Assembly (NCBI RefSeq): GCF_000715015.1
Contig: NZ_JMIW01000007.1
Location: 1-64,000, forward strand
DNA: 64,000 nucleotides
Direction of reading: 5' to 3'
DNA from: Erythrobacter longus
GTDB lineage: Bacteria > Pseudomonadota > Alphaproteobacteria > Sphingomonadales > Sphingomonadaceae
The notes under the pieces: model-generated
What the model saw: only the letters and a program-made list of their open reading frames with translations
Databases searched by the model: none
Told to the model about the DNA's origin: nothing
Part shown: positions 9,499 to 41,603 of the stretch, one piece after another
How positions within the stretch are numbered: position 1 is the stretch's first letter
Layout of the letters: each line of letters opens with the position of its first letter
Made by a program: the position numbers and the translations under genes

Positions 9499-9582
9499 GC
9501 CCACCCCCAACCCCTCCCGCGAGCGGGAGGGGAGCGAGACTTGCCGAACCGTAGGTAAGGCTTAGTCGCAGCGGGGTGGGCC
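9499..9582. repeat. GC-rich palindromic repeat (CCTCCCGC..GCGGGAGG family)
   Basis: Runs from GCCCACCC through the palindrome CCCCTCCCGCGAGCGGGAGG to TAGTCGCAGCGGGGTGGGC. The two edges are inverse complements (GCCCACCC and GGGTGGGC). The same family is clustered around the DUF559 gene at 39.9-40.7 kb. Confidence 0.8.
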
Positions 9583-39595: not shown

Positions 39596-39723
39596 TGTCA
39601 TCCCCGCTCCCCCTCGTCATCCCCGCTCCCCCTCGTCATCCCGGCGAAGGCCGGGATCCATTGCAAGGCAAAGCGCGGATTGAAGAGGAAGAATCTGGAC
39701 CCCGGCCTACGCCGGGGTGACGG
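39596..39723. repeat. dispersed inverted repeat with an 18-bp direct duplication at its left
   Basis: The inverted repeat (39634-39723) has arms CATCCCGGCGAAGGCCGGGA and CCCCGGCCTACGCCGGGGTG, the same layout as 8542 and 10627 but with CGGC in place of CAGC. To its left GTCATCCCCGCTCCCCCT is present twice (39598-39633). No coding support. Confidence 0.85.
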
Positions 39724-39894: not shown

Positions 39895-39966
39895 ATTCTC
39901 CCCTCCCGCTTGCGAAAGGACGCAGCCTTTACTCCCCTCCCGCCTGCGGGAGGGGGTGGGGGTGGG
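39895..39966. repeat. GC-rich palindromic repeats upstream of the DUF559 gene
   Basis: CTCCCCTCCCGCTTGCGAAA followed by CTCCCCTCCCGCCTGCGGGA and GGGGGTGGGGGTGGGC. Members of the CCTCCCGC..GCGGGAGG family also found at 9499 and downstream of the nuclease gene. The last unit ends 32 nt before the DUF559 ATG. Confidence 0.85.
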
Positions 39967-39997
39967 CAAACCCAAACCATTGCGGCAATATCCCGAA

Positions 39998-40351
39998 ATG
40001 CCCAACTGGCAACCCAGAAACACAAACCGCGCCCGCACCTTACGCCGCGAAGCCACCCCGGCAGAGCGCGCTTTGTGGGAGCACCTCTCCCGCGGCCAAC
40101 AAGGCGCAAAGTTCAGCCGCCAAATGCCGATCGGACAGTTCTATGCCGATTTCCTCTGCCGGGAGTTGAAGCTCGTGATCGAACTCGACGGCCACAGCCA
40201 CGATATTGCGCCCGAGAGGGATGCGGTTCGCGACAAGTGGATGCGGACCGAAGGCTACACCGTGCTGCGCTTTACCAACGCGCAAGTGCATGAGAACATC
40301 GAAGGCGTAGTCACAGCAATCCGCCTGAAGATTGAGGAGTTGCGCCGGTAG
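39998..40351 (+). CDS. DUF559 (Vsr-like PD-(D/E)xK) endonuclease-domain protein
   Basis: 117 aa. The N-terminal TNRARTLRREATPAERALWE is the standard DUF559 opening. The core 'FSRQMPIGQFYADF' then KLVIELDGHSHD has the Asp and Glu-x-Asp of a restriction-endonuclease-like site, and 'GYTVLRFTNAQVHENIEGV' closes the fold. The family is related to very-short-patch-repair nucleases; its cellular role is unknown. The frame is open from a GTG at 39956 within the upstream repeat, but the ATG at 39998 gives the family N-terminus. GC-rich palindromes lie on both sides, one set 32 nt before and four units starting 8 nt after the stop. Confidence 0.87.
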   Translation: MPNWQPRNTNRARTLRREATPAERALWEHLSRGQQGAKFSRQMPIGQFYADFLCRELKLVIELDGHSHDIAPERDAVRDKWMRTEGYTVLRFTNAQVHENIEGVVTAIRLKIEELRR

Positions 40352-40358
40352 CAAAAAA

Positions 40359-40657
40359 CCTCCCGCTTGCGGGAGCCTAGCTGCAGCGGGGTGGGTAGCC
40401 TTCTTGATCTCTCCCGCCTGCGGGAGGGACAGCGAGACTTGGGGACCCCGGACTTGATCCGGGGGAGCCTAGTCGCAGCAGGGTGGGCACTCCCTCTTTC
40501 ACCCCTCCCGCTTGCGGGAGGGGCAGTGAGACTTGCGAGCTTGCTCGCTAGTCGCAGCGGGGTGGGCAATCCATCGCTTGCAGTAAGGTAGGCAATTTCC
40601 CGACATCTCCGACCAAGCCAAGCCCACCCCTAGCCCCTCCCGCAAGCGGGAGGGGGA
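40359..40657. repeat. array of four GC-rich palindromic repeats downstream of the DUF559 gene
   Basis: Units at about 40359-40396, 40411-40488, 40502-40567 and 40621-40657. Typical unit: CTCCCGCTTGCGGGAG, a variable middle with GAGACTTG, then CTAGTCGCAGCGGGGTGGGC. The last unit is in the opposite orientation. Together with 39895-39966 the array frames the nuclease gene. The unit at 9499 is a distant relative in the same window. Confidence 0.88.
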
Positions 40658-40667
40658 TTTGATCTCG

Positions 40668-41603
40668 CTAGCTCTGCCCTGTCGCGAGGCCAGCAATTAG
40701 GGCTATCTTGGCAGCGCATAGATGGAGCGCATACTCTGCGATAGGCCTTGGCACTTGGCGCTGTGTCGCCCCTTGTCCGTGTGCTCCCTCATTATTACGC
40801 AATTGAGGAAGGCCGGACGCCAAAGTAGCGATAAGCTGATCAAAGGACTTGTCTAGATGGTTAGGTATCAACTCGTTACGCCTGATAATTTTGATCAAGT
40901 CAGACGCTCGATCGCCCTTCTCGTATTCCCAACCCTTAATGTCACAGACACTCTTTAGAGCGCTCTCGAACGCCTTGCCGCACTCAACCACTGCCAGTGA
41001 GTGCTTGCCCTCCCGGTACAGACTGTGTGCTCTAAAAAACTCATCACGAGGTCCTGAAAACCCTTCGGCATGAAGGAATCGAATTGCCGGTTTGACGACC
41101 TCTTTGTGTACGAACTCATCATCAACTCGAAAGATGGCACCATTTTCATACTGGTAGCCGAATGAGGCCTGACGCAAGCGGTAGTTGACCTCGTCCAACG
41201 CCTCTTCTGGTTTCATCTTTATCGAATAGTTTTCTAGTCGATATTGCGGGATGCCCGAGACGACCTCACCAATGTAGCGACAGGCAACTTCTAATGCGTC
41301 GATGAATTCTTCAACCTTGCAGTCACCGATAAATCGCAAGAACTCCTCGGCAGGGTTGTCCGCACCCCGAAGGTAGTGGACGCCATACTCTCGCCGAAGG
41401 ATGGAGACTATCATTTCCCAACCGTCGTTGTTGTTATCTGGGGTACTAAGATCATGGTACCCAAATACGTAGAACCGGCCTATTGCGTCAGCCAAAATTT
41501 GCTGGATTTGAACGCGTAGCTTGTCCGTTACTTTATCGTATTGATAAACATCATCGGCCCCGCTCTCCTCTTTCTTTCGCTCTGAGAAGAGTTTGAAGAT
41601 CAT
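40668..41603 (-). CDS. abortive-infection/HEPN-type protein (STM4504/CBY_0614-like)
   Basis: 311 aa. The N-terminal half (MIFKLFSERKKEE, then DVYQYDKVTDKLRVQI and REYGVHYL) matches my memory of the AbiJ-type NTD4 domain. The C-terminal half 'EFFRAHSLYREGKHSLAVVECGKAFESALKSVCD' and LRNNEGAHGQG forms an Abi/HEPN-like helical domain; R-x5-H in RNNEGAH fits the HEPN RNase motif. Such proteins are suspected anti-phage RNases. Base composition is visibly lower in GC than both neighbours, suggesting transfer. It starts 3 nt after the nrdB stop, with GAGG inside the end of nrdB, so it is probably translated from the nrdB message. Its stop lies at the edge of the GC-rich repeat array. Confidence 0.78.
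   Translation of the reverse strand: MIFKLFSERKKEESGADDVYQYDKVTDKLRVQIQQILADAIGRFYVFGYHDLSTPDNNNDGWEMIVSILRREYGVHYLRGADNPAEEFLRFIGDCKVEEFIDALEVACRYIGEVVSGIPQYRLENYSIKMKPEEALDEVNYRLRQASFGYQYENGAIFRVDDEFVHKEVVKPAIRFLHAEGFSGPRDEFFRAHSLYREGKHSLAVVECGKAFESALKSVCDIKGWEYEKGDRASDLIKIIRRNELIPNHLDKSFDQLIATLASGLPQLRNNEGAHGQGATQRQVPRPIAEYALHLCAAKIALIAGLATGQS

Follow-up and report, generated by a model that had tools for sequence, protein, structure and literature searches.

A DUF559 nuclease as putative partner of clade-specific C/T-arm REP palindromes in Erythrobacter longus and other bacteria

REPs are common bacterial repeats, and those served by RAYT (TnpA-REP) transposases, known as REP/REPIN systems or REPtrons, combine clade-specific repeats, inverted flanks around the transposase gene, gene-free dimers and vertical inheritance. 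According to a 2013 survey, REPs fall into a GTAG group linked to RAYTs and a large CGTC group, which takes in dRS3 of Neisseria and RPE-4 and RPE-6 of Rickettsia, is defined by a CGTC tag and a stem starting with AT, and remained without a dedicated enzyme after a look among transposases (PMC3733652). The same survey describes REPs within replication and repair genes (PMC3733652), and palindromic elements inserted in frame have been described in Rickettsia (PMC10969869). In Caulobacter, the DUF559 protein VsrA is reported to be required for a methylase mutant to mount its SOS response, and a role in mismatch repair is argued for it (PMC12907096). In the open-licence literature we found no paper linking DUF559 to palindromes or REPs, an absence there being no proof.

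The DUF559 locus of Erythrobacter longus

The window, by which we mean the whole 64,000-nucleotide stretch analysed, holds a 117-aa DUF559 gene (39998-40351) enclosed by five near-intact and one decayed C/T-arm palindrome. The intact cores, of the form CTCCCGC..GCGGGAG, lie at 39937-39952, 40360-40375, 40411-40426, 40505-40520 and 40637-40652, and the decayed copy at 39902-39919. The features of the cluster, together with the one isolated hairpin elsewhere in the window, are as follows.

9513..9530, + strand: isolated hairpin 1 of the type found at the DUF559 cluster, followed by a hairpin-2 stretch and a tail (pattern search)
39902..39919, + strand: decayed hairpin unit (CCTCCCGCTTGCGAAAGG), outer upstream copy; over 17 nt 88% identical to the reference copy
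39934..39967, + strand: upstream proximal unit, hairpin CCCCTCCCGC-CT-GCGGGAGGGG (39934-39955) with G-rich tail GTGGGGGTGGGC towards the gene; inverted pair with 40622-40655
39998..40351, + strand: DUF559 (PF04480) gene for a predicted Vsr-fold nuclease, 117 aa from the clade-common ATG (Pfam match, AlphaFold2 model, structural matches)
40359..40395, + strand: downstream unit, hairpin CCTCCCGCTTGCGGGAG (40359-40375) and tail GCAGCGGGGTGGG (40383-40395) (repeat/core search)
40410..40488, + strand: second downstream unit, hairpin 1 (40410-40427), long hairpin 2 with CCCCGGACTTGATCCGGGG core (40446-40464) and tail GCAGCAGGGTGGGC (40475-40488)
40502..40567, + strand: third downstream unit, complete, hairpin 1 (40502-40523), hairpin 2 GACT..AGTC (40530-40553) and tail GCAGCGGGGTGGGC (40554-40567) (hairpin 2 compensation)
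40622..40655, - strand: outer downstream unit, inverted, tail GCCCACCCC.. then hairpin CCCCTCCCGC-AA-GCGGGAGGGG (inverted-repeat search)

The outermost intact units form a 34-nt inverted repeat that is 91% complementary. Translation is taken to start at ATG 39998, which by eye is common to the clade members read (MPxWxPR); the start chosen mechanically, GTG 39956, falls within the repeat tail. A preliminary description of this DNA had placed several palindrome units on both sides of the gene, as is borne out here, with the nearest within 32 nt upstream and 8 nt downstream. The downstream hairpin does begin 8 nt past the stop codon, but on the upstream side the distance from the end of the nearest hairpin to the start is 42 nt. 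That description was also right that the 64 kb contain a single further core, although this lies at 9513-9530 and not at 9499.

The gapped pattern CCTCCCGC-N2-20-GCGGGAGG matches four times in the window, three times at the cluster and once at 9513, and on average 0.00 times in 100 dinucleotide shuffles. Across the whole genome (3,602,162 bases in 14 contigs) there are 31 cores and no match to a reversed-pattern control, and the Poisson probability of finding at least five of 31 random sites in one given kilobase is approximately 4e-13. From coordinates read by hand, the 26 cores outside the cluster comprise 13 in five pairs and one triplet (44-142 nt apart), two that are 409 nt apart, and 11 single copies.

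Where its length can be read, a full unit spans approximately 0.45-0.5 kb, with a single nuclease gene enclosed by two ends in inverted orientation. An end presents hairpin 1, in which the C/T arm precedes the G/A arm, in many cases a hairpin 2 whose stem is free to vary, and a G-rich tail; in the window this order, with a short spacer between the hairpins, is clearest at 40502-40567. Among the 264 palindromes of the two locus sets termed “small” and “named” below, the latter drawn from the 80 best among at least 553 relatives, the pyrimidine arm is the 5' arm in 263. Over 137 loci the proximal units face each other at 32, face outward at three and point the same way at three; at all but two of the other 99, one side or both had no palindrome or no tail that could be called. 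Of 63 proximal pairs with loops of equal length, 45 have loops closer to inverted and 10 closer to direct copies. The inner part of hairpin 2 varies between constant borders, the distinct segments numbering 16 for type A and 23 for type D, and it varies by compensation: mean folding energies are -11.7 (type A) and -9.8 (type D) kcal/mol vs -6.9 and -5.5 for half-swapped chimeras, and in neither type did any of 500 chimera sets equal the real value. Compensation of this kind is compatible with folding as single-stranded DNA or as RNA.

The encoded protein matches DUF559 (PF04480) with an E value of 2.4e-34 and 117.9 bits, against a gathering cut-off of 20.6. Its AlphaFold2 model (pLDDT 84) predicts a Vsr-type fold, with structural matches to the DUF559 structure NGO0050 (3hrl; Z 15.5, rmsd 1.4 over 93), to the homing endonuclease I-Bth0305I (3r3p; Z 12.5, rmsd 2.2 over 94) and to Vsr itself (1cw0; Z 9.6, rmsd 2.4 over 98); profile matches to unrelated PDB chains at E values near 0.5 were disregarded as chance. 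The acidic/His motif positions are common to all of these, and among DUF559 proteins they are kept almost without exception (D in 164/164, E in 164/164, D in 163/164 and H in 162/164); these are the putative catalytic residues. Vsr acts as a nuclease in mismatch repair and I-Bth0305I is encoded in an intron, and we met no description of flanking repeats for either. Within the genus, each nuclease clade is present in at most one copy per genome (44 loci) and is under purifying selection, with median dN/dS values per clade of 0.07-0.27 for unsaturated pairs, few of which exist in some clades. Most members of a clade occupy one site, and the nuclease locus is thus mostly vertically inherited.

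How does this arrangement compare with the described systems? The likeness to RAYT-REP partnerships (described in part in PMC3733652), which the preliminary description proposed, covers the single-copy gene, the inverted palindromic flanks, the dispersal of units as nuclease-free dimers, the clade-specific repeat and the mostly vertical inheritance. The differences lie in the enzyme, which has a predicted Vsr fold rather than that of a Y1/HUH transposase; in the stems, which are accompanied by no GTAG tag, GGGGCAGTGAGACT or GGGGGTGGGGGTGGGC adjoining the complete stems in the window; and in the tail, GGGTGGGC or GGGTGAGGG. A profile search for the RAYT-type Y1 transposase (PF01797) returned nothing in the window's own genome (G000), and the family is absent from 57 of 61 genus genomes (G002, G007, G013 and G037 being the exceptions) and present in 11 of 39 genomes of the order, draft assemblies being liable to hide copies. 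A RAYT acting in trans was rejected for the window's genome, the search having found no Y1 gene in G000.

The CGTC REPs resemble the DUF559 units in being alphaproteobacterial palindromes that are associated with no known transposase, occur mostly as inverted dimers and also lie inside genes (PMC3733652). They differ in tag, arm and tail: the stems of DUF559 units are C/T runs such as CCCCTCCCGC, CCCTCTCCC and CCTCCCCG, and few start with AT (ATCTCCCCC, at L223, L232 and L233). The window also contains a CGTC-like REP inverted pair (CGTCATCCCGG...) at 39634-39660 and 39696-39722, approximately 275 nt upstream of the DUF559 gene, which is a separate type; hairpin 2 of the unit at 40410 is built on a similar core (40446-40464). 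Like MITEs with an autonomous partner, short nuclease-free elements share their terminal inverted ends with a gene-bearing unit, yet here that unit encodes a nuclease alone and lacks a transposase of the DDE, HUH or any other known kind. With the palindromic elements of Rickettsia the DUF559 units have in common a mode of insertion, in frame within protein genes (PMC10969869).

A gene at 40668-41603 (- strand) with AbiJ_NTD4 and DUF7014 domains begins 3 nt past the nrdB stop codon, and the region downstream of nrdB, which varies among the few relatives read, resembles a defence-gene site. An empty site for the window copy was sought via nrdB, but this region proved too variable, the nrdB end being found in 4 of the 22 loci looked at (30 fetched).

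Flanking palindromes beyond the window

The generality of the flanking was assessed in four sets of loci with two detectors, a strict one demanding perfect arms and a second one allowing one mismatch, both of which were run on controls as well. Loci with less than 250 nt of flank and one duplicate (L087) were excluded from the flank counts. The counts below give loci with a C/T-arm palindrome within 250 nt of the domain, loci with palindromes on both sides, windows of the same size 1.2 kb away that contain a palindrome, and loci scored by the strict detector alone and by a longer-arm variant, for which the 8-bp stems of type D count as misses.

“Small” set, 58 DUF559 loci of at least 75 bits from 100 related genomes: 54/55; both sides 45; distant windows 1/101; strict 48/55; longer arm 43/55
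“Named” set, 79 loci found by scanning named genomes for protein similarity (the top 80 out of at least 553 relatives of five repeat-flanked proteins): 71/73; both sides 56; distant windows 6/139; strict 67/74; longer arm 69/74
“Phylum sample”, 38 usable loci from DUF559 matches in 150 phylum genomes: 37/38; both sides 28; distant windows 4/76; strict 35/38; longer arm 37/38
“Core” set, 12 hand-picked loci of a lower-scoring DUF559 paralogue (approximately 50-63 bits) present in most genomes of the genus: 0/12; both sides 0; distant windows 1/24

The phylum sample is made up of the best match of 32 of the 49 genomes having one, plus six further usable matches; the 17 genomes omitted are G000, G019 and those with a best match below 63 bits. 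Distant windows of the three higher-scoring sets contain a palindrome in 11 of 316 cases overall, and palindrome density falls from 5.3-6.7 per kb over the nearest 150 nt to 0-0.10 per kb at 2-6 kb. Chance or base composition was rejected as an explanation. With the strict detector, shuffled 250-nt flanks yielded on average 0.30 loci upstream and 0.30 downstream for the small set (55 loci) and 0.20 and 0.25 for the named set (74 loci); with the final detector, dinucleotide-shuffled flanks yielded 1.4 and 3.6 of 55, 3.6 and 1.8 of 73, and 2.0 and 2.2 of 38 for the small set, the named set and the phylum sample; and with neither detector were both sides ever matched. Higher-scoring DUF559 genes thus stand far above three controls, and the statement of the preliminary description that DUF559 genes elsewhere lie beside similar palindromes is borne out; a lack of enrichment, which would have refuted its proposal, was not what the counts gave.

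The strict detector missed 14 loci, seven in the small and seven in the named set; when 12 of these, all but L067 and L074, were read by eye together with two loci at contig edges, decayed or wobble stems were seen in nearly all. The final count leaves four misses (L067, L091, L118 and L255), of which L067 and L118 have decayed or interrupted copies by eye. Flanking also extends past the phylum: ten loci of the named set, a non-random selection limited to the 80 top matches among at least 553 relatives, come from MAGs of other phyla (Phycisphaeraceae, two Gastranaerophilales, Marinimicrobia, Rokuibacteriota, Daviesbacteria, Nitrospira, two Dehalococcoidia and Omnitrophota), and all ten have a palindrome on at least one side.

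By the comparisons made, palindrome sequence tracks the nuclease clade and not the genome, which is the covariation that the preliminary description had proposed to test. In ten genomes with several high-scoring DUF559 genes, the palindromes were more like those of the nearest homologue elsewhere than those of the other gene in the same genome in 32 comparisons, with no losses and one tie, although comparisons within a genome are not independent and many homologues share a site. Since many nearest homologues sit at the same site, syntenic pairs, defined by a shared flank within approximately 1.5 kb by blastn or tblastx, were removed for a correlation test. On the 6,287 remaining pairs from different genomes, nuclease and repeat similarity correlate with a rho of 0.41, which none of 300 permutations reached, although chaining of neighbours places some clade A pairs scored as non-syntenic (L001 with L037 and L042) in a single site group. 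In a phylogeny of 148 proteins, which has few columns and many open forks, the arm type changes label 33 times vs 71.4 times when shuffled (0/200), with five of the seven arm labels clustering; CTTCTCC and “other” do not cluster.

Dispersed units, junctions and in-frame insertions

Repeat copy number follows the presence of the nuclease, as the preliminary description expected, in comparisons among genomes of one genus that are not independent of one another: the three repeat types summed have a median of 8.5 in 30 genus genomes with a high-scoring DUF559 gene vs 0 in 31 without (p 4e-6), and each type follows its matching clade. Type C (CCCTTCCC) is present at 2-18 copies in all five clade C genomes vs any copies in 8 of 56 others, with a maximum of four (p 3e-7). 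Type D (CCTCCCCG) is present in 12 of 13 genomes with the clades vs 8 of 48 without (p 1e-7), a test first applied to one sub-clade of three genomes (p 0.003) and then to both clades with CCTCCCCG ends; G100, with zero copies and outside the DUF559 search, was excluded from the type C and type D counts. Type A is the weakest case: it is present in 10 of 11 genomes with the clade vs 22 of 50 without, at means of 11.5 vs 4.3 (p 6e-4). Genomes lacking any high-scoring DUF559 gene can hold many type A copies (27 in G034, a 77%-complete assembly, 14 in G028 and 10 in G029), as can genomes with nucleases of other clades only (46 in G025, 23 in G032, and 22 each in G016 and G023), so that the repeats either outlive the nuclease or have another mover.

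Ten type D nuclease-free pairs were fetched, with 103-112 nt separating the starts of the two palindromes. Compared with the nearest of 22 DUF559-unit ends, the 20 ends of these pairs have a median identity of 85% (70-100%), and beyond hairpin 1 the median is 78% vs 59% when shuffled. All ten pairs (L166-L175) join one end of the GGGACC/GGAACC clade D form to another of the GGTGGCAG..CTGACGG form, which also flanks another nuclease (L074); having ends of two forms, the pairs are not simple deletion products.

At two gene junctions the DUF559 unit is absent as a whole in related genomes. Among 30 junctions between a gene X and a LOG-family gene, fetched from 59 genomes matched, five carry a unit (e.g. 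G001, with 555 nt between landmarks) and eight are bare at 77 nt with stop and start codons overlapping, among them G052, whose LOG is 98% identical to that of G001; of the rest, two measure 80 and 89 nt, 13 hold other sequence, one is unreadable and G010 has the left end only. For the trpB-trpA junction (30 fetched of 53 matched), G018 has 487 nt vs 47 nt in G021 and four others and 50 nt in one, with other sequence in 22 and one locus unreadable. Both junctions hold unrelated inserts in many genomes, and the direction of change is unproved at them, the in-frame cases being clearer. At each junction the split of the stop/start overlap leaves both copies, which fits a duplication of 3-4 nt, although selection for both signals would look alike.

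Several smaller features were noted at these sites. The type D left end at the LOG junction of G010 (L187) runs directly into an unrelated reading frame with no nuclease. At L186, L188 and L209 the right end of the unit (GGGGAGGAT or GGGGAGGAC) lies a few nucleotides before the LOG start codon and could act as a Shine-Dalgarno sequence, in either orientation because the arm order is C/T then G/A. In the upstream flank of L028 (G036), the first approximately 30 nt of trpA seem to be duplicated beyond the DUF559 unit.

At four loci a DUF559 unit interrupts a host protein in frame: PriA at L089, Mfd at L098 (from a Rickettsiales isolate), IspE at L107 and HsdS at L155. In PriA, Mfd and HsdS, host sequence can be identified to either side of the insert; for IspE it is recognised by search on the N-terminal side and by eye on the C-terminal side, the portion after the insert matching no Pfam family. 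For PriA and Mfd the insertion is taken as derived because the matched PDB relatives have no such insert.

A nuclease-centred interpretation and its rivals

From these comparisons it is close to certain that DUF559 nucleases and a family of C/T-arm REPs form a partnership. What the nuclease does within it is a separate question, and our reading, which we consider probable, is that this is a REP system in which a dedicated DUF559 nuclease of predicted Vsr/I-Bth0305I fold takes the place of the RAYT, and in which its cutting would move the repeats. The nuclease would recognise the repeat of its own clade by the folded end, formed in DNA that is single-stranded or extruded, and would cut that end both in cis and in trans; the unit, or a pair of ends with no nuclease between them, might then be copied or inserted elsewhere by host repair, in many cases at a gene junction and occasionally in frame within a gene. 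A role for host repair is required here, since a lone nuclease has no strand-transfer function.

The nuclease might instead be a passenger, either cargo or a domesticated gene of benefit to the host (e.g. in Vsr-like repair), lying between two repeats whose palindromic ends are moved by another host enzyme. Repeats in genomes without a matching nuclease and the mostly vertical inheritance of the nuclease loci fit such an account, as does the argument in the VsrA report that this Caulobacter DUF559 protein is a mismatch-repair endonuclease (PMC12907096). We nevertheless consider it unlikely, as the ends usually lie within approximately 150 nt of the nuclease domain and leave no space for another gene in the unit, they match the nuclease clade even where no shared flank is detected, the Y1 enzyme that usually moves REPs is missing from 57 of 61 genus genomes including the window's, and the lower-scoring DUF559 paralogue of the genus is free of repeats (0/12).

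A more selfish role can also be envisaged, in which the nuclease gene is a homing parasite that takes the repeats as its target and copies itself into repeat pairs via double-strand-break repair. The closest characterised fold to that of the model, after a DUF559 structure, is that of a homing endonuclease (I-Bth0305I), the gene stands at the position expected for a repeat-pair spacer, and whole units are present or absent at the junctions; yet homing should fill the many nuclease-free pairs, which stay unoccupied while each clade keeps to at most one copy per genome (44 loci), and we judge this account very improbable. Least credible to us, and scarcely to be entertained, is a purely regulatory account, in which the palindromes would serve the nuclease gene as terminators, insulators or mRNA-stability elements and have no part in mobility. 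Their closeness on both sides of the gene and the compensation in their stems, which also fits an RNA role, are what such an account would predict, but not that nuclease-bearing units lie in frame within host proteins, nor that the palindromes match the nuclease clade in sequence rather than forming any stable hairpin; terminators as the main account were rejected because the same palindromic units are dispersed where no such gene is present.

The associations suggest that a large class of bacterial repeats may owe its spread to the DUF559 nuclease, as the enzyme hitherto missing, and with it a candidate enzyme, from a family of unknown function, can now be named for another large repeat group. 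A wider proposal, which we put forward only tentatively, is that a third REP superfamily, very widespread in Pseudomonadota and beyond and marked by a C/T-arm stem and a GGGTG(A/G)GG tail, might be moved autonomously by DUF559 nucleases, through clade-specific hairpin cutting and host repair. Its members would be mobile elements free of any transposase that can insert at operon junctions and, in frame, within essential genes, and sister nuclease clades may serve the CGTC REPs. The clade-matched pairs of enzyme and substrate are ready for in vitro testing. DUF559-REP units may also account for palindromic inserts within repair genes, and their existence raises the question of whether a Vsr-like repair label fits all DUF559 proteins.

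One further genome of the same family, G124, contains ten DUF559 matches, some of them in reading frames of 390-750 aa, which possibly represent further in-frame insertions.
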